Source: Tolypothrix brevis GSE-NOS-MK-07-07A (GTDB lineage: Bacteria; Cyanobacteriota; Cyanobacteriia; Cyanobacteriales; Nostocaceae). Taken from it: a DNA stretch of 64,000 nucleotides. The position numbers and the translations under genes are program-made. Positions 51,899 to 62,827 of this stretch are shown piece by piece. The notes beneath the pieces were generated by a model. It saw only the letters and a list, made by a program, of their open reading frames with translations. It did not search any database and was not told the origin of the DNA. Location of the stretch: the NCBI GenBank assembly GCA_019358985.1, contig JAHHIJ010000016.1, forward strand, positions 1 to 64,000, written 5' to 3'. How positions within the stretch are numbered: position 1 is the first letter of the stretch; each line of letters starts with the position of its first letter.

Positions 51899-52438
51899 AT
51901 GGCTCAATTTTCAGAATCAGCAGACGTCCCCGATATGGGGCGTCGTCAATTCATGAATCTGCTCACTTTCGGGACTGTTACCGGAGTGGCTCTGGGAGCA
52001 TTGTATCCCGTAGTCAAGTTTTTTATTCCCGTTTCTGCTGGTGGTGCTGGTGGTGGGACAATAGGAAAAGACGAGTTAGGTAACAACGTCAGCGTAGCTA
52101 AATTTTTAGACAGCCATAATGTCGGCGATCGCACTTTAGTTCAAGGACTCAAAGGAGATCCGACCTATATTGTGGTAGAAAGCAAAGAGGCGATCGCTGA
52201 TTACGGCATTAACGCCATCTGCACTCACTTAGGTTGTGTCGTTCCCTGGAACATCGCTGAGAACAAATTTAAGTGTCCTTGTCACGGTTCCCAGTATGAT
52301 GCTACTGGTAAAGTTGTCCGAGGTCCAGCACCACTGTCTTTGGCTTTAGCTCATACCAAAGTAAATGACGACACAATTGTGTTGACTCCCTGGACTGAAA
52401 CCGACTTCCGCACAGGTGAAAAAGCTTGGTGGGCTTAA
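51899..52438 (+). CDS. petC: Cytochrome b6f Rieske iron-sulfur subunit
   Basis: From the ATG at 51899 the protein has 179 residues. GRRQFMN near residue 14 is a twin-arginine-like motif before the single membrane helix, matching Tat export to the thylakoid lumen. The [2Fe-2S] ligands are CTHLGC (Cys108, His110, Cys113) and CPCHGS (Cys126, Cys128, His129). It transfers electrons from plastoquinol to cytochrome f. An upstream frame extension to 51791 is rejected. It is followed by petA in an operon. Confidence 0.96.
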
Positions 52439-53998: not shown

Positions 53999-55174
53999 TC
54001 AGTTGTAGTGAGTAAACAGTGACAATTGTTCAACCATTTCTTTACCCTGTGGTTTATTTCCCTGAATCAGATTGTAAATATAATCACCTATTGCTTTCGC
54101 AAGTAAAACTGGTACTGCATTACCGATTTGTTTATATTTAGAACTTACTGAACCATAGAAAACCCACTCGTCAGGAAAAGTTTGAATAACAGCAGATTCG
54201 CGTATAGTTAGAGGACGCAATTCTATAGGATGACACATATCTGTAGCTTTTTGATGTGGACTTGTCGTTACAGTAGGAGAGGGTTTATCCCAAGACAAAC
54301 GTCTGTAAAAACCAACTTTACCTCCTCCTGAGTTGTAGGCTCCTCCCATAGCTTCAGGCTTTAATTCTTCAGGTAAATATTTCCAGTTTTGCCCTTCTTT
54401 TAAAAGTCTAAGATACTTCAAACGGTTTTCAGAGTAAGGAATAAATTGTGGCTGCAAGTCAACTAACTCAAATATGGCATCTCTAAGAGTACGCCATTTC
54501 GGTAAATTGATACCATCTTCGCTATGAGTAGCTACAGGAAATGTGAAAGCTTCATTATCTCTAGAACCAATAAATATGACGCGCTGTCTATTTTGTGGAA
54601 CACCATAATCTGCTGCTTCTAAAAGGTTGTAAACCACGTTGTATCCAAGCGCTTTCATTTCAGCCAACACAACAGAAAGAGCAGCACCACGCATTTCATC
54701 TAATTCCAATGGTTGTCCTTTACGCATGTCTATCGGTCTATGTCGGATAGGAGCAGATAGCAGTCCTCTCACGTTTTCCATAACAAAGAAACGTGGCTGA
54801 ATTTCTCTAACTATGCGGATAAAGTCCATAAACAAACTGCCGCGAGGGTCCATCACTGAACCACGTAACCCTGCTGTACTAAAAGGTTGACAAGGTGGAC
54901 CACCAATTATTAAATCTACTTCCCCAGGTTGTAAAGTCCTGCCAATATTTAAAATACGTCCTCCCTCGCACAGTAAGTCTTGAGCGTCTACTTTCGTTAT
55001 ATCTCTTGGTACAGCAATTTCTTTGAGATGTGGTCGATTAAGAGCTATTGTTTTTGTGGCATCAGAATCATTTTCTACCACACTTACAGTATGAAATCCT
55101 GCCTGTTCTATGCCAAGGTCTAAACCAAAAGCTCCTGTAAAAAGTGAAATAGAGATTAGTTTACCTTTTATCAA
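53999..55174 (-). CDS. DNA (cytosine-5) methyltransferase
   Basis: The likely start is TTG at 55174, since AGGAG lies 8 bases before it; GTG at 55195 is possible. All main C5-MTase motifs are present: I (SISLFTGAFGLDLG), IV (GGPPCQPFSTAG, catalytic Cys95 with this start), VI (ENV in VMENVRGL), VIII (PQNRQRVIFIG), IX and X (KQIGNAVPV). The target-recognition region is near residues 220-320. It follows the putative endonuclease gene on the same strand (spacing 155 bases), so the two form a type II restriction-modification system. Its recognition sequence cannot be told. Confidence 0.93.
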   Translation of the reverse strand: MIKGKLISISLFTGAFGLDLGIEQAGFHTVSVVENDSDATKTIALNRPHLKEIAVPRDITKVDAQDLLCEGGRILNIGRTLQPGEVDLIIGGPPCQPFSTAGLRGSVMDPRGSLFMDFIRIVREIQPRFFVMENVRGLLSAPIRHRPIDMRKGQPLELDEMRGAALSVVLAEMKALGYNVVYNLLEAADYGVPQNRQRVIFIGSRDNEAFTFPVATHSEDGINLPKWRTLRDAIFELVDLQPQFIPYSENRLKYLRLLKEGQNWKYLPEELKPEAMGGAYNSGGGKVGFYRRLSWDKPSPTVTTSPHQKATDMCHPIELRPLTIRESAVIQTFPDEWVFYGSVSSKYKQIGNAVPVLLAKAIGDYIYNLIQGNKPQGKEMVEQLSLFTHYN

Positions 55175-55328
55175 TTTTGTCACTCCTAAATACACTACAG
55201 TGGTAAAATAAAAGGTCTATGAGAACATAGCCAAAAAATATAATATCAATTGCTTCAGCCAGTTATTGCAATTTTAATCTTTTTATTTGGCTATTTACAA
55301 ATTAAGATAATAAGTAGTTTAAACCGCA

Positions 55329-56138
55329 CTACTGTTGTGCCTCGCTAGCTGCCAATTCTGCGAAACTTTTATCTATTAGAAGCAACATATTTTTTACATG
55401 GCTCTCAACAAGGTCATAGTCAACCTGAATCTTATCCCAAAACTCTCTACCAGCAATACGAGGAATTTTAGAGTATTGCGGGAATGTCCATTGCCCCAAA
55501 TTAAAAGCTACCACAAACAAAGGATTTTCATGAATACTTAATTCTTTTTTAGCTCTAGGGATTTGAGAGCCAGTTAATGTACCTTTTAAAGTTTTTAATT
55601 GAGCAAAATATGATATGTCATTATTGAAAATAATAATGTCAATTCCAGTAATTTTAATTCCAAATTCTATTTCCGGAACAATAACATAAGGACTAATATT
55701 AGATATTTGTTCCCAAAGATTGCCCATTCTTGTACTAAGACTTCTTGTGACAGAGTTGCTAGTGACCAATAATTTGGCTCCACATAGTTCAAAAAGATTA
55801 CGAGGATTGGGATAATTCTCTAAATTTGCTTTTTTTTGCTCAAATTCTTTTGTTAACCAGACAATAAAATCTGTAGAAAAATGTTCCGTTTTTTGATGAA
55901 TTAGCTCTGACTGAATATCTAATTGTAAAACTGAGCTATTCTGTTTATCTTGTTCAATTTGATATTGAAAATAAGAAGATATTATTGGATAAATAACTTT
56001 TGTCAATTTGTATGCTTTATGCAAATCTTCATCAGTTATGTTATTAATATCAATTGTTGATGCTTGCTGAGAAATGAGTGCTTTCCGCTCTGGCACAGAA
56101 AGTGCTATCAAAGTCTCAGCAGTTAGTTTTGTAGGCAT
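55329..56138 (-). CDS. Putative type II restriction endonuclease
   Basis: This 269-residue protein precedes a C5-methyltransferase gene and has a PD-(D/E)xK-like segment: KITGIDIIIFNNDISYFAQLKTLKGTLTG, in which Asp176 and the QLK pair could supply the metal and catalytic residues. The N-terminal half is helical (LSVPERKALISQQAS, IQSELIHQKTEHF). The gene is AT-rich compared with its neighbours and has no HIP1 site, as expected for a transferred R-M gene. The nuclease role is inferred from position and this motif; I do not recognise a named family. Confidence 0.6.
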   Translation of the reverse strand: MPTKLTAETLIALSVPERKALISQQASTIDINNITDEDLHKAYKLTKVIYPIISSYFQYQIEQDKQNSSVLQLDIQSELIHQKTEHFSTDFIVWLTKEFEQKKANLENYPNPRNLFELCGAKLLVTSNSVTRSLSTRMGNLWEQISNISPYVIVPEIEFGIKITGIDIIIFNNDISYFAQLKTLKGTLTGSQIPRAKKELSIHENPLFVVAFNLGQWTFPQYSKIPRIAGREFWDKIQVDYDLVESHVKNMLLLIDKSFAELAASEAQQ

Positions 56139-57894: not shown

Positions 57895-58479
57895 ATGAAA
57901 CAACTGGGAAGTAAAAACATCAAAACCAGTTTGGATGTAATTTATGATTTAGAGCAAATCGCCAAGAATGATCCACAACAACACTGGGAAATCATGGAAA
58001 TGCTCACGATTTTTGTGCGAAATAATGCTCCTTACACATGCCAAGAGAAATCAAAAAGCGACTTAAAAACGAAAATTCGTACAGATATTCAAGCAGCTCT
58101 AACAGTGATTGCGAGGAGAGATGTAAAAAAAGATCCGGAAAATCAGCTACTTGATTTGAGCTATACGGATCTGCGGGGAGTAAACTTTAATTGCGCGAAC
58201 TTAGCGGGAGCGAATCTATATCAGGTTAACCTGGCAGGGGCAAATCTCAAAAGTGCTAACTTAAGTGGTACAATCCTAAGTGCATCTAACTTGGCTGGAG
58301 CAAACCTCAGTGGTGCTAACTTAGCAGGGGCAATTCTCAATGCGGCAAACCTTAGTGGGGCAAATTTGCATCAAGCCAACTTGCATCGAGCTAATTTGTT
58401 TCTAGCTAATTTGCATTACACAAATCTCAGTGGTGCGAAACTGGATGAGGCAAACCTCCGGGATGCTAACCTGTATTAA
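57895..58479 (+). CDS. Pentapeptide-repeat protein (short form)
   Basis: The 194-residue protein starts with a helical module DVIYDLEQIAKNDPQQHWEI...FVRNNAP (residues 14-50). It then carries about 18 A(N/D)L-type pentapeptides (residues 85-194, ANLAG, ANLSG, ANLHQ), forming a right-handed quadrilateral beta-helix. The same module occurs in the larger gene at 58721, so the two are paralogs; this copy lacks the membrane part. Roles of these proteins in cyanobacteria are unknown. Confidence 0.85.
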   Translation: MKQLGSKNIKTSLDVIYDLEQIAKNDPQQHWEIMEMLTIFVRNNAPYTCQEKSKSDLKTKIRTDIQAALTVIARRDVKKDPENQLLDLSYTDLRGVNFNCANLAGANLYQVNLAGANLKSANLSGTILSASNLAGANLSGANLAGAILNAANLSGANLHQANLHRANLFLANLHYTNLSGAKLDEANLRDANLY

Positions 58480-58720
58480 ACAGACATCCAAGAAGCCAAA
58501 CATCTAGATTTTCAGCAGATTAAATCAACTGATTTTTCGTGATTTTTCTACGTCTGTAAGGCATCTACGCTCATAGTATTGAAACACATATTGCATTCAA
58601 TACACTTGTGTAATGGTAAAAGGAAGATTAATTGAGCCTTGGGGCGCATATTGCAATTTTGAGATAAATGCTATACTCTTTTGCCAATAATCATTCTAAA
58701 ATGTGAGGAATACTTCTACT

Positions 58721-60190
58721 ATGTCTGCTAATAAGACAGACACACTTTTGAATTGGTTGATAGCCACATCGGTTATATTTACTCTCTCATTGACTCTAAA
58801 TTTATTGGCATTTTCTCATCATGAGAAAGTGTCAACGCAGCAAAAAATAGAGAATAGAAATCAAACATTAACAACTTCTGCAATAGTTTTTTTAGGGCTA
58901 GCAGGAATGATTAATGCTTATTACGCAGCAAAGCGTACAAAAGCTTTAGAAAAAAGTGCGATCGCAAATGAAAAAAACATTGAACTCGGCATTGAAAATA
59001 ACAAACTCAATCAAGACAGATTAATTGCTGAACGCTTTATGGCAGCGATTGAACAGCTTGGACATGACAAAGTGTCAACCCGGACAGGCGCAATTTACGC
59101 TTTAGAACGAGTTGCTCAAGATTTTCCTAAAGAACACTGGACAATCATGGAAATTCTGTCAGCTTTTGTGCGCGAGAATGCTCCGATCCAGGTCTCACAA
59201 CCACAACAAACGGAAGAAGATTCTGAACCTCGTTTTGGCAGACACACCCACGTCACACGTCACGAACATCCCGACGACCTAAACTGGATGGAAGAATCAC
59301 CGCGCATTCCTACAGATATTCAAGTGGCTTTAACAGTCATCGGTAGACGCGATTCACAAAAAGACCCAGTAAATCAGAAAATTGATTTACGCAATACTCA
59401 CATCAGACGCGCAGATCTGCGTGGAGTAGATTTTGCGGGAGCAGACTTGAGTGGATCTGACCTTTGCGGTGCAGACTTGCGAGCAGCCGATTTGTGTGGT
59501 GCAGACCTGGATAAAGCTCAACTATGTGGTTCAATTTTGTATGAAGCCAACTTGCAATCATGCAACCTGAGTGCGGCAAACATGAACGGAGCTAATCTCA
59601 ATAAAGTTAAGCTTTGTGGAGCAAACTTGCGTGGATCTAACCTTTGTGGAGCAAGTTTGCGTGCGGCAAATCTCACCGACGCTAACCTTTATAAAGCCAA
59701 CTTGCAACAAGCAACTTTAAAACTTGCCAACCTCTCTGGTGCAAAGTTGTTTTTAGCCAACTTGCAACAAGCAAAGTTTGGTAAAGCTAACTTGCAGGGT
59801 GCTGGTTTGATTGGAGCGAACTTGCAGCAAGCAAACTTGAATGGAGCCAATCTTAGTAACGCAAATTTGAATGCAGCCAAACTGCAACAAACAGAGATAT
59901 TGTTTGCTAATTTATCTGGAGCAAGTTTGATAGAAGTTGATTTATATAGAGCAAATTTGATGGGAGCCAATTTGCAAAGAGCAATTCTTCATGAAGCTAA
60001 CCTTTGTGAGGCAAACTTGATGGGAGCCAACCTTTATGGGGCAAATCTTTGCGATGTCAAATTAGAAGGAGCAATTTTGACAGGAGCGAAAAATTTAGAT
60101 CCACAGCAGATTAGAGAAGCATTAGGCGATCGCACAACTCGTCTACCTGATAATGTTGAAATACCAATGCATTGGCGGCAAACTGTCTAA
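58721..60190 (+). CDS. Membrane-anchored pentapeptide-repeat protein
   Basis: From the ATG at 58721 (489 residues; GTG at 58703 is possible) there are two hydrophobic helices (residues 8-32 and 52-70), then a coiled helical region. The module GAIYALERVAQDFPKEHW...SAFVRENAP follows (about 125-165), and then about 40 pentapeptide repeats (about 225-470; ADLRG, ANLCG, ANLQQ). The helical module is shared with the protein at 57895. The repeats would form a long beta-helix in the cytoplasm with the anchor in a membrane. It is upstream of the CHAT-PCD gene by about 220 bases, same strand. Confidence 0.88.
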   Translation: MSANKTDTLLNWLIATSVIFTLSLTLNLLAFSHHEKVSTQQKIENRNQTLTTSAIVFLGLAGMINAYYAAKRTKALEKSAIANEKNIELGIENNKLNQDRLIAERFMAAIEQLGHDKVSTRTGAIYALERVAQDFPKEHWTIMEILSAFVRENAPIQVSQPQQTEEDSEPRFGRHTHVTRHEHPDDLNWMEESPRIPTDIQVALTVIGRRDSQKDPVNQKIDLRNTHIRRADLRGVDFAGADLSGSDLCGADLRAADLCGADLDKAQLCGSILYEANLQSCNLSAANMNGANLNKVKLCGANLRGSNLCGASLRAANLTDANLYKANLQQATLKLANLSGAKLFLANLQQAKFGKANLQGAGLIGANLQQANLNGANLSNANLNAAKLQQTEILFANLSGASLIEVDLYRANLMGANLQRAILHEANLCEANLMGANLYGANLCDVKLEGAILTGAKNLDPQQIREALGDRTTRLPDNVEIPMHWRQTV

Positions 60191-60341
60191 ATAACAATCG
60201 CATTAATTGATTACTTGGGTGCATCTTATTTTTATTAAACATTACTAAAAATTAATTTAATATTATTTTACGAGAAAATATTTATATTTCCGAAATATCT
60301 GTGATCATTAATGTTTAAGTTAGAGTACAATCCAAAACCCT

Positions 60342-60370
60342 GTAAAGACGTTCCGCCGGAACGTCTTTAC
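60342..60370. repeat. Dispersed palindrome in the CHAT-PCD leader
   Basis: GTAAAGACGTTCC and its inverse meet at GCCGG. It lies 40 bases before the chosen ATG (60410) and codes CKDVPPERLYV if the earlier ATG at 60311 were used, which is part of why 60410 is preferred. Confidence 0.9.
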
Positions 60371-60409
60371 GTATATTTAATCACAACGCAATTTACATAT
60401 ATATTTGCT

Positions 60410-61405
60410 ATGAATACCGATACTAATCTCAAATCAATCTTGCTACTGTCTGCGAACCCTAAGCGCACAAAAAGCCTACGCTTACAGGAGGAGGAAGAGG
60501 AAATTAAGATGCGATTACGTCTTGCAGGATATGGTAAGGTTCCCATCAACTCCCGTGGTGCAACCAAACCAAGAGATATTCAGCAGGCAATGTTGGACTT
60601 CAAGCCCCAGATTGTACACTTTAGTGGTCATGGAGCTGGGGAGGATGGCTTAGTCTTTGAGGATGCAGCGGGACAAGAAAAATTAGTTAGTTCTGAAGCA
60701 TTAGCCAACCTATTTGAACTTTTCTTTCAGCGAGGAGTAGAGTGTGTAGTTCTGAATGCTTGTTATGCAGAGTTCCAAGCTCGTGCGATCGCTCAACATA
60801 TTCCCTACGTAATAGGTATGAATCAAGCTATTGGGGATCGTGCTGCCATTGAATTTGCTGTGGGTTTCTACGCAGCTGTAGGTGCTGGGGAAACAATTGA
60901 ATTTGCTTATAAACTAGGCTGTAACACGATTCAACTCGAAGGTATTCCCGGACATTTCATTCCTGTTCTTTTTACAAAAAATCAAAACGGCTCTAACAAC
61001 AACTCCTCAGTCCAAAATAGTTTCTTAAGCGTTTATCCAACTCCTCCACCAGAAAAACCACAGCCAATTAGTGAGGAGTATATTCAAATTGCACTTAGCC
61101 ATAGCTTATGTAAATGGAAAAAAGTTGTTAGCCAACTACCTGAAGATCCAACCAAAGAGCGCATTGAACTTTTTCGTCAGTACAACTTCAAAACATTCCT
61201 GGGAGCAATTGAATTCATGCATCAAGTTGCACCTGGGTGCGATATTCAACTCCATCACCCTCGCTGGGAGAACATTTGGTGTACACTTAGAGTTTATCTA
61301 ACTACCTGGGACATCGATCATCAAATTTCTGATCGAGATATTCAATTAGCGAAATATTTAGACCAAGCTTTCTCCAATTTTTCAGGTGCGGAGCTAAAGG
61401 AATAA
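60410..61405 (+). CDS. CHAT protease fused to a pterin-carbinolamine-dehydratase-like domain
   Basis: From the ATG at 60410 the protein has 331 residues. Residues 8-190 are a CHAT domain: KSILLLSANPK at the start, His74 in VHFSGHGAGEDG and Cys118 in VVLNACYAE give the caspase-like dyad. A Ser/Asn/Pro linker (190-222) leads to a C-terminal domain (223-323) matching the PCD/DcoH signature: CKWKKV, a helix FKTFLGAIEFMHQVA, HHP at 282-284, then W290, W300 and D308/D310, spaced as in the family pattern. Known PCDs dehydrate 4a-hydroxytetrahydrobiopterin or dimerise with HNF1; which applies here is unknown. The fusion is unusual and suggests a sensor or assembly domain. Confidence 0.85.
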   Translation: MNTDTNLKSILLLSANPKRTKSLRLQEEEEEIKMRLRLAGYGKVPINSRGATKPRDIQQAMLDFKPQIVHFSGHGAGEDGLVFEDAAGQEKLVSSEALANLFELFFQRGVECVVLNACYAEFQARAIAQHIPYVIGMNQAIGDRAAIEFAVGFYAAVGAGETIEFAYKLGCNTIQLEGIPGHFIPVLFTKNQNGSNNNSSVQNSFLSVYPTPPPEKPQPISEEYIQIALSHSLCKWKKVVSQLPEDPTKERIELFRQYNFKTFLGAIEFMHQVAPGCDIQLHHPRWENIWCTLRVYLTTWDIDHQISDRDIQLAKYLDQAFSNFSGAELKE

Positions 61406-61466
61406 GTCTGTATTACATCTGAAATATTTATGAAGCAAGGCTTCTAAAAAAACTTTTGTTTACTTA

Positions 61467-61742
61467 TTAAAACATAGGATTGTGTTCATAATCCCAACAT
61501 TTGTTATCACGCCAAGTTCTACGGGTATGCTCACATTGAGATTGTTCGGTTAGCCAAGGAATCGATGCCGGGTAGCTGAAGGTGGCTTTAGATGTGGAAT
61601 TTATGTCAGAAAGTGAGAGTATTAGCGAAGCTGTACAAAAGCCAGAAGTCGGCAATACAGCGACAAACACAGTAAACAACATAATTTTTGCTCTTGTGGA
61701 AAGTTGAAATTTGCCTGGTTTAATACTCTGGCGATCGCGCAT
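61467..61742 (-). CDS. Small putative membrane or exported protein
   Basis: The ATG at 61742 has AGGGA about 7 bases upstream, giving a 91-residue product. An internal hydrophobic helix (IMLFTVFVAVLPTSGFCTASLILSL) follows a basic N-terminus; the C-terminal part is polar, with cysteines in QSQCEHTRRTWRDNKCWDYE. It might be a small anchored or secreted protein. The HIP1 site sits at the start. I recognise no family. Confidence 0.55.
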   Translation of the reverse strand: MRDRQSIKPGKFQLSTRAKIMLFTVFVAVLPTSGFCTASLILSLSDINSTSKATFSYPASIPWLTEQSQCEHTRRTWRDNKCWDYEHNPMF

Positions 61743-61814
61743 ATATTTTCCCTGAATATAAGTAGAAACAATTAAACGTAAAATACCAACTTGATAGAAA
61801 GCATATATAAGCAA

Positions 61815-62197
61815 AGTTTTGCTTTCTGCCTTCTATTTAGCAGTTGATATAAATAACGAAATGCTAAAGTGATGCAAATATTTGCACTAAAAAATTGTGT
61901 TAACAAAACTTGATTTGTTTGCTACTTTTATAGGCGTTTATATTCTGTGGCTGTATGTAATCTGTCTATGAGTTGATTTTTGCACACCCTTATCTAAAAG
62001 CACAGATGTTAATCGTGATTTTTACTAAGAAAAAATACTTAAGTGCTGTTTTTAAAGATTACGTGTGTTTTTTCTTCGAGCAAATAATTTAACTATTTAG
62101 TATACATAAAGACACAAGTTGCTTTTTGTACTTACGAGGGTATTTCTTGAAAGTTTAAAATTTGAAACTTCAATTTTGAGCTAAACTAGCCTCGAAG
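61815..62197. other. AT-rich intergenic region
   Basis: No gene, repeat or RNA was recognised in these about 380 bases between divergent genes. Confidence 0.5.
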
Positions 62198-62827
62198 ATG
62201 GCAAATACCACTCTTAATAAGCTTATGATTGACCTTTACACCTTCACCACACCCAACGGACGTAAAGCTTCGGTTATGTTGGAGGAAGTTGGACTTCCCT
62301 ACAACACTCACAAAATCGACATTACCAAAAACGAGCAGTTTACACCAGAGTATATTGCAATCAATCCCAATAGCAAGATTCCCGCCATTATCGACCAAGA
62401 TACTGAGATTAAAGTTTTTGAATCTGGCGCAATTTTGATTTATTTGGCAGAAAAAACTGGTAAATTCCTACCTCTTGATCAAAAAGGTCGCTTTCAAGTA
62501 CTTGAGTGGCTGATGTGGCAAATGGCAGGTTTAGGACCAATGTCTGGGCAATTTAATCATTTTAAACGGTATGCGCCAGAAAAGATTCCCTATGCGATCG
62601 CACGCTATGAAAAAGAAACTCTCCGACTTTACAGCGTGTTAGATAAACAATTAGCAGACAAAGAATTTATCTGCGGTGACTATTCGATTGCAGACATAGC
62701 CACCTATCCTTGGATATCCATTTATGAAAGTCAAGGTTTAACGCTAGATAATCACTTGAATCTCAAACGTTGGGTAGAAACAGTACAGCAACGTCCAGCA
62801 GTACAGCGGGGGATGAAAGTGCCGTAG
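62198..62827 (+). CDS. Glutathione S-transferase, Nu-class-like
   Basis: The 209-residue protein (or 200 from the ATG at 62225) begins MIDLYTFTTPNGRKASVMLEE, the TPNGxK signature of YfcG/YghU (Nu-class) glutathione transferases that act as disulfide oxidoreductases or peroxidases. NPNSKIPAI has the cis-Pro and FESGAILIYLAEKTG binds the gamma-Glu of glutathione. The C-terminal helical domain follows, with DYSIADIATYPW. The stop codon lies in the end of a MITE (62824-62897), so the C-terminus ends GMKVP. Confidence 0.93.
   Translation: MANTTLNKLMIDLYTFTTPNGRKASVMLEEVGLPYNTHKIDITKNEQFTPEYIAINPNSKIPAIIDQDTEIKVFESGAILIYLAEKTGKFLPLDQKGRFQVLEWLMWQMAGLGPMSGQFNHFKRYAPEKIPYAIARYEKETLRLYSVLDKQLADKEFICGDYSIADIATYPWISIYESQGLTLDNHLNLKRWVETVQQRPAVQRGMKVP

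Follow-up and report, generated by a model that had tools for sequence, protein, structure and literature searches.

Within the window, by which we mean the whole 64,000-nucleotide stretch of DNA analysed here, a single gene encodes a protein that joins a CHAT domain to a domain of the pterin carbinolamine dehydratase (PCD) fold. The sequence-only reading had placed both in one chain, and Pfam profiles match both halves of the 331-residue product; the fusion is genuine and far exceeds what chance would give. Judged from its sequence, the N-terminal CHAT domain is a predicted caspase-like protease. The PCD domain belongs to a group that otherwise sits behind TIR domains, and its presence behind both TIR and CHAT points to a shared control module of bacterial death or immunity proteins. 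The features of the gene, which we refer to as CHAT-PCD, are shown in Table 1.

Table 1. Features of the CHAT-PCD gene, with coordinates as positions in the window.
Feature	Coordinates	Strand	Remarks
CHAT-PCD gene	60410..61405	+	ORF, 331 aa
CHAT (caspase-like) domain	60443..60898	+	residues 12-163, PF12770; nearest solved structure SAVED-CHAT filament 8tl0
His74 codon, CHAT dyad (SGHG)	60629..60631	+	[SCT]GHG in 26/26 CHAT rows
Cys118 codon, CHAT dyad (NAC)	60761..60763	+	N[AG]C in 26/26 CHAT rows
Linker	60983..61051	+	residues 192-214, model confidence <50
Exchanged module: linker end (YPTPPPEKP) and PCD	61025..61396	+	blastn vs TIR-PCD loci
PCD (Pterin_4a) domain	61064..61366	+	residues 219-319, PF01329
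HHP core of PCD active site (H282, H283, P284)	61253..61261	+	10/10 EA-PCDs, 77/77 sampled ordinary PCDs
W300, replaces third active-site His	61307..61309	+	W in 10/10 EA-PCDs; ordinary PCDs H 72/77, Y 5/77
H304, invariant in EA-PCD clade	61319..61321	+	5% of sampled ordinary PCDs

Position 60410 is likely to be the start codon, since a reading frame begun at the upstream in-frame ATG (60311) would cross a palindromic repeat that is interspersed in the window, and since, of the 15 loci which the genome-collection scan found by the CHAT half, 11 have an alignment that begins with the first residue read from 60410. The palindrome (GTAAAGACGTTCC...) lies at 60342-60370 and at seven more sites in the window, where its half-site has 16 matches against 0.05 expected.

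The CHAT half matches PF12770 with an E-value of 1.6e-11 (44.6 bits against a cut-off of 24), and the His74/Cys118 dyad proposed for it is confirmed, lying within the motifs HFSGHG and LNACY. By sequence, the nearest solved chain to residues 50-177 is 8tl0 (E 6.2e-10), the activated SAVED-CHAT filament, and the full-length model (moderate confidence, with a mean pLDDT of 75.7; below 50 across the linker) matches the same structure (Foldseek 1.9e-11; Z 19.6 over 184 residues at 3.0 Å), with caspases at a Z of about 11. The dyad is thus intact on a caspase-like fold.

The C-terminal half matches PF01329 above its cut-off (E 4.5e-17, 62.4 bits against 26), and the nearest solved chain to residues 248-325 is the Toxoplasma PCD 2v6u (E 6.4e-9). 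The short pattern from which this half was initially called a PCD, HHP followed by W after 5 residues, W after 9 and D within 8-15, is present in full, with W286 and D310 retained. The VIA list for the whole-protein model consisted almost entirely of CHAT and caspase rows, and the PCD part was therefore modelled separately. Modelled alone it has the PCD fold, agreeing with 2ebb at a Z of 14.2 over 96 residues (1.7 Å), whereas no row from another family reaches Z 7. The pLDDT of 76.1 denotes moderate confidence, two of the five models being under 40. No NCBIfam dehydratase equivalog scores above its cut-off for the PCD half, the best reaching 58.3 against 108.

When the full-length protein was searched against the genome collection, 18 loci matched, 15 through the CHAT half and three through the PCD half. 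The latter encode TIR-PCD proteins and come from Pelatocladus, Lentzea and a Saprospiraceae metagenome-assembled genome. In them Pfam identifies both TIR_2 (E 7.6e-16, 1.8e-16 and 9.7e-9, respectively) and Pterin_4a (1.5e-20, 1.9e-19 and 4e-19); the Saprospiraceae gene is incomplete, its contig ending inside the gene. A profile (A1) built from four of the PCDs found further TIR-PCDs in five genomes (G417, G336, G1573, G1635 and G1642), among which the G1635 and G336 proteins are 90.5% and 87.2% identical to that of G1642. A plasmid search added a TIR-PCD on pRHL1 of Rhodococcus jostii RHA1 (L096:3430-4381), with a frame broken inside the TIR part. We use the label EA-PCD for the PCDs fused to effectors, and the TIR-PCD family is defined here; the total is ten EA-PCD proteins in three phyla, nine with TIR and one with CHAT. 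The TIR assignments come from Pfam in three cases, from NCBIfam or PADLOC in three more (L141, L147 and L150), and from similarity with no profile match in G1635, G336 and RHA1. All nine TIR-PCDs contain W-[VI]-R-x-E-[LI]-E, a motif that we take to hold the TIR NADase Glu. CHAT-PCD has CHAT in place of the N-terminal TIR that defines the family.

In a tree with 77 ordinary PCDs the ten EA-PCDs form one group (support 100/97; 200 of 200 bootstrap trees), and an earlier tree with six EA-PCDs, built from 86 domains reduced to 83 by removal of identical rows, gave the same grouping. Four residues are present in every EA-PCD and rare or absent in the ordinary sample: H304 (5%), R285 (4%), E287 (9%) and E253 (0%). 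The 77 were chosen as the best-scoring loci, and the His, Tyr and Trp counts at the third active-site position hold for that sample only. A proline-rich linker is a further mark of the clade, and CHAT-PCD has both this linker and the W300/H304 pair. PF01329 matches two places in the genome that carries CHAT-PCD, the fusion itself and an ordinary stand-alone PCD of 106 residues, which is one of the five with Tyr at the third-His site.

We take the active-site histidines of DCoH to be H61, H62 and H79, with the W300 site presumably corresponding to H79. Two of the three are thus retained in the EA-PCDs and the third is Trp in all ten, so that these are PCD-fold homologues whose status as dehydratases is only putative. 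The Trp on its own does not set them outside the known PCDs, since the pattern first used to recognise the domain permits W or H there. PCD normally recycles the product of aromatic amino acid hydroxylase, and ordinary tetrahydrobiopterin recycling is unlikely here because no such hydroxylase (PF00351) was found in eight of the nine genomes, the Saprospiraceae genome alone having one. That the PCD half is a working dehydratase of pterin metabolism, fused by chance and with CHAT or TIR as an accessory, is therefore very unlikely. The retained HHP would also fit retained catalysis, as would W286, D310 and a pattern satisfied with the W included, but against this stand the altered third histidine, the missing hydroxylase, and a further match to PF01329 or A1, lying outside the clade, in at least six of the nine genomes (G000, G336, G417, G590, G591, where it is weak, and G592; G1573, G1635 and G1642 were searched at 1e-20).

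A phylum-wide survey with PF01329 (206 of 386 genomes matched) lists best matches only, and fusions were therefore counted with profile A1. In overlapping samples, EA-PCDs were found in 2 of 291 genomes of the order and 6 of 192 of the family, in 1 of 394 of the Lentzea class and 1 of 220 of the Lentzea family, and in 1 of 296 of the Saprospiraceae phylum and 1 of 149 of the Saprospiraceae order; the Lentzea and Saprospiraceae samples hold none beyond the genome at their centre. Each of nine genomes has a single copy. As to how often CHAT and PCD occur fused in cyanobacteria, a point raised by the sequence-only reading, CHAT-PCD is present in one genome, and the four other genomes of the genus (one 54% complete) have neither CHAT-PCD nor any EA-PCD. 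Pterin_4a was found in none of the ten CHAT-half loci scanned with Pfam. Carriage of the module by phages was considered and set aside, there being no phage record and, among viral contigs, 20 pattern matches with no confirmed relative; plasmid carriage came to two records, pRHL1 of RHA1 and, in Nostoc HK-01, one ordinary dcoH.

Comparison of window positions 58001-62500 with the TIR-PCD loci by blastn shows similarity solely in the linker end and the PCD, at 74% to the G417 locus (L141; 61025-61396) and 72.5% to Pelatocladus (L046; 61034-61357). Because the DNA similarity to these two genes is limited to that segment, the effector domains must have been exchanged. A single event in which CHAT took the place of TIR would explain this most simply. 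This direction is read from the nine TIR proteins against one CHAT, because the inner EA branches are weakly supported and the Saprospiraceae row is long, and the opposite direction may be compatible with those branches. The PCD was first seen as a novel fusion partner, and novel it is, but not as a one-off, since the subfamily otherwise sits behind TIR; the novelty thus lies in an exchangeable module rather than in a single fusion.

The CHAT half is a member of a group of cyanobacterial CHAT domains whose C-terminal partners are numerous. In a CHAT tree of 26 rows (omitting L041, L049, L133, L134 and L137-L140) 18 partner labels need 19 changes, the labels TM, coil, WD40 and unk being readings of the sequences and not profile matches. 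The subclade around CHAT-PCD (10 rows, support 89/81) has eight labels, among them Shedu SduA, AAA_35 and nothing. In the position that the PCD occupies here, CHAT paralogs in the same genome carry GUN4 (two), bDLD3, AAA_35 (two), TIR with AAA_35 (one) and DUF900, three that were scanned have no second Pfam domain, and L129 has WD-like repeats by eye. Plasmid relatives of the CHAT half lie under genes annotated as TIR, SAVED, AAA, serine protease, diguanylate cyclase, EAD1 and pentapeptide, the SAVED case being 55% identical and on a Nostoc plasmid (H5). With CHAT partners this varied and a PCD shared with TIR, both halves are units of exchange.

Other CHAT architectures were seen in the same scans. 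In Nostoc sp. T09 (L035:3686-4903) CHAT is fused to the Shedu SduA C-terminal domain (PF14082, 5.2e-14); three Pseudanabaena loci encode LRR-Roc-COR-CHAT proteins (L043 by Pfam, L044 and L045 by eye); and in two cyanobacteria (L037:7992-9215 and L038:947-2131) a similar unannotated domain, recognised by eye, follows CHAT.

A misassembled or accidental, non-functional chimaera is extremely unlikely. It would agree with the occurrence of CHAT-PCD in one genome and with the end branch of its PCD, the longest among the cyanobacterial EA-PCDs (0.25 vs 0.03-0.21). However, the genome has no separate TIR-PCD copy to join and the four genus mates have no EA-PCD, the frame is continuous with its border at the linker, and the differences from the TIR-PCDs are mostly at synonymous sites. 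Seven pairs that include CHAT-PCD were compared for dN/dS (RHA1 and Saprospiraceae excluded); three were saturated (Pelatocladus, G1573 and Lentzea), and the other four gave 0.06-0.14, a rough figure given dS values of 1.2-1.7. The PCD protein sequence is thus conserved, on a pairwise measure that cannot say whether selection preceded or followed the exchange. With CHAT-PCD in one genome and missing from four genus mates, the chimaera is perhaps young or idle.

Two tandem pentapeptide genes that share their N-terminal part lie upstream at 57895-60190 (+), the second with an apparent N-terminal transmembrane stretch by eye. The upstream pentapeptide gene had been named as a candidate partner of CHAT-PCD, a proposal that the locus surveys do not support. 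An ORF with at least five A[DN]Lxx units is found in one of 20 loci (L139, same genus), these being 15 CHAT regions of the same genome, four CHAT regions of the genus and the TIR-PCD region of G417; and the second pentapeptide protein has, for its N-terminal part, the adjacent tandem gene as its sole match in the genome. A contrary point is the CHAT relative on a plasmid of Tolypothrix PCC 7910 (H2), which lies under a gene annotated as a pentapeptide protein.

Nor is there a recurring neighbour of another kind. Between window positions 52001 and 64000 no ORF save CHAT-PCD matches any ORF of the nine TIR-PCD loci, and the six cyanobacterial TIR-PCD loci have no neighbour in common apart from two ORFs that occur in both G1642 and G336. 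The comparison uses the longest ORFs and is weak at high-GC loci, namely Lentzea, where an antisense ORF displaced the TIR-PCD, and Rhodococcus, where it is doubtful. At 53999-56138 (-) a C5 cytosine DNA methylase gene (PF00145, 1.9e-67) lies beside an ORF of 269 residues with no Pfam or PADLOC match, perhaps its restriction partner; this methylase with its unannotated neighbour is nearby, and no defence island was shown around CHAT-PCD. A known defence system was also considered and rejected, PADLOC giving the generic chat model alone for CHAT-PCD (P0001) and weak matches to the TIR part for the four TIR-PCDs scanned.

The neighbourhoods also bear on the idea that the PCD acts as an adaptor, docking like-with-like onto a second PCD, such as the ordinary 106-residue protein, and so connecting its attached effector with a further component. 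Like the effector-associated domains (EADs) and bDLDs, the PCD is small and occurs as a module alongside TIR as well as caspase-like effectors, homotypic recruitment is proposed for EADs in the relevant passages of PMC7159879, and the genome does hold one ordinary PCD. We nevertheless consider an adaptor of this type improbable. EADs are described, in the same passages, as lacking enzymatic features and having a second copy in the operon or genome. The PCD is an enzyme fold with its core kept and with a single EA-PCD in each of the nine genomes, two differences on which we did not count it among the EADs, and no partner gene was found, the six cyanobacterial loci having no conserved neighbour beyond the two ORFs common to two of them.

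Because there is one EA-PCD in each of nine genomes and the neighbours are not conserved, CHAT-PCD has the appearance of a one-gene device. Since the PCD is what TIR-PCD and CHAT-PCD share, it must serve both effectors. We give roughly even chances to CHAT-PCD being a single-chain sensor-effector, in which the PCD module assembles the CHAT domain and gates it by ligand. The module would determine how the protein oligomerises, and the rebuilt pocket, with two His kept, the third replaced by Trp and a new His four residues on, would bind a small molecule, possibly a pterin or else a heterocycle of related type. Binding would switch the attached effector on or off; CHAT, once on, would cut host proteins, and a TIR occupying that position would use up NAD, the output presumably being cell death or dormancy.

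PCD/DCoH proteins are dimers or tetramers, and their double role as enzyme and dimerisation cofactor is long established. It is accordingly possible, albeit doubtful, that the PCD half is a passive oligomerisation scaffold, a dimer or tetramer that gathers effector domains with no ligand. The titles of 1f93 and 1dch name DCoH a dimerisation cofactor, and TIR and CHAT effectors can work as filaments (8tl0; Cat1, PMC12162218). The pocket, however, is not decaying, with HHP invariant, the replaced site always Trp and a new invariant His, and a constitutive oligomer would keep the effector permanently on. We favour an oligomeric ligand-gated switch, which would be comparable to SAVED-CHAT (8tl0) and to the proposed GUN4 sensors, because of the one-gene appearance, the general absence of the hydroxylase and a pocket that is kept but changed. 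As a tentative extension, the EA-PCD clade could be the first sensing module of pterin type (or for a related heterocycle) among bacterial cell-death effectors, exchanged between TIR NADases and CHAT proteases across three phyla, such that a change in a pterin- or folate-like metabolite, for example in phage infection, would trigger suicide.

Here the PCD fold occurs in two unrelated death enzymes as a module that can be exchanged, and the exchange of TIR and CHAT is a natural experiment in which the shared part reveals what the module does. The proteins are of about 300 residues and have no evident partner genes, so that the questions of ligand and assembly are directly testable. The openly searchable literature, which leaves subscription papers and supplements outside its scope, gave no prior description of the fusion: no co-mention of a CHAT or TIR domain with carbinolamine dehydratase, or of CHAT with pterin, was found, 4a-hydroxytetrahydrobiopterin dehydratase does not occur among the matches listed, and the main texts of PMC8195603, PMC7159879, PMC3501461 and PMC8283722 do not use the word "pterin". 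The TIR-PCDs, as judged by sequence comparison, make up a small family with a changed pterin-enzyme pocket for which our searches found no description. Taken as a whole, the sequence-only interpretation stands in its fusion, in a PCD-fold regulatory partner of a new kind, with the fold borne out by the model, and in the lack of a description in the literature searched; its pentapeptide partner is not supported.

SAVED-CHAT belongs to a type III CRISPR setting, and no such setting was seen for CHAT-PCD. The EA-PCDs share the fold, the HHP core, W286 and D310 with ordinary PCD/DcoH proteins (PF01329; 2ebb, 1dch, 2v6t), but differ in forming a separate clade, in the Trp for the third His, the new His and the proline-rich linker, and in being fused to effectors in ten of ten cases. 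A further parallel is with the GUN4 fusions to caspases and TIR, which likewise join a cofactor-binding domain to a death effector, and of which two CHAT-GUN4 examples occur in the same genome; such fusions are proposed as sensors in the passages of PMC7159879 on GUN4, where GUN4 is tetrapyrrole-binding and called cyanobacterial, whereas the PCD module has a different fold and is found in Actinomycetota and Bacteroidota as well. Finally, SAVED-CHAT (8tl0), the nearest solved structure, also has CHAT in one chain with a filament-driving domain, although there CHAT is C-terminal (chain residues 304-505), behind SAVED, and in CHAT-PCD it is the PCD that is C-terminal.
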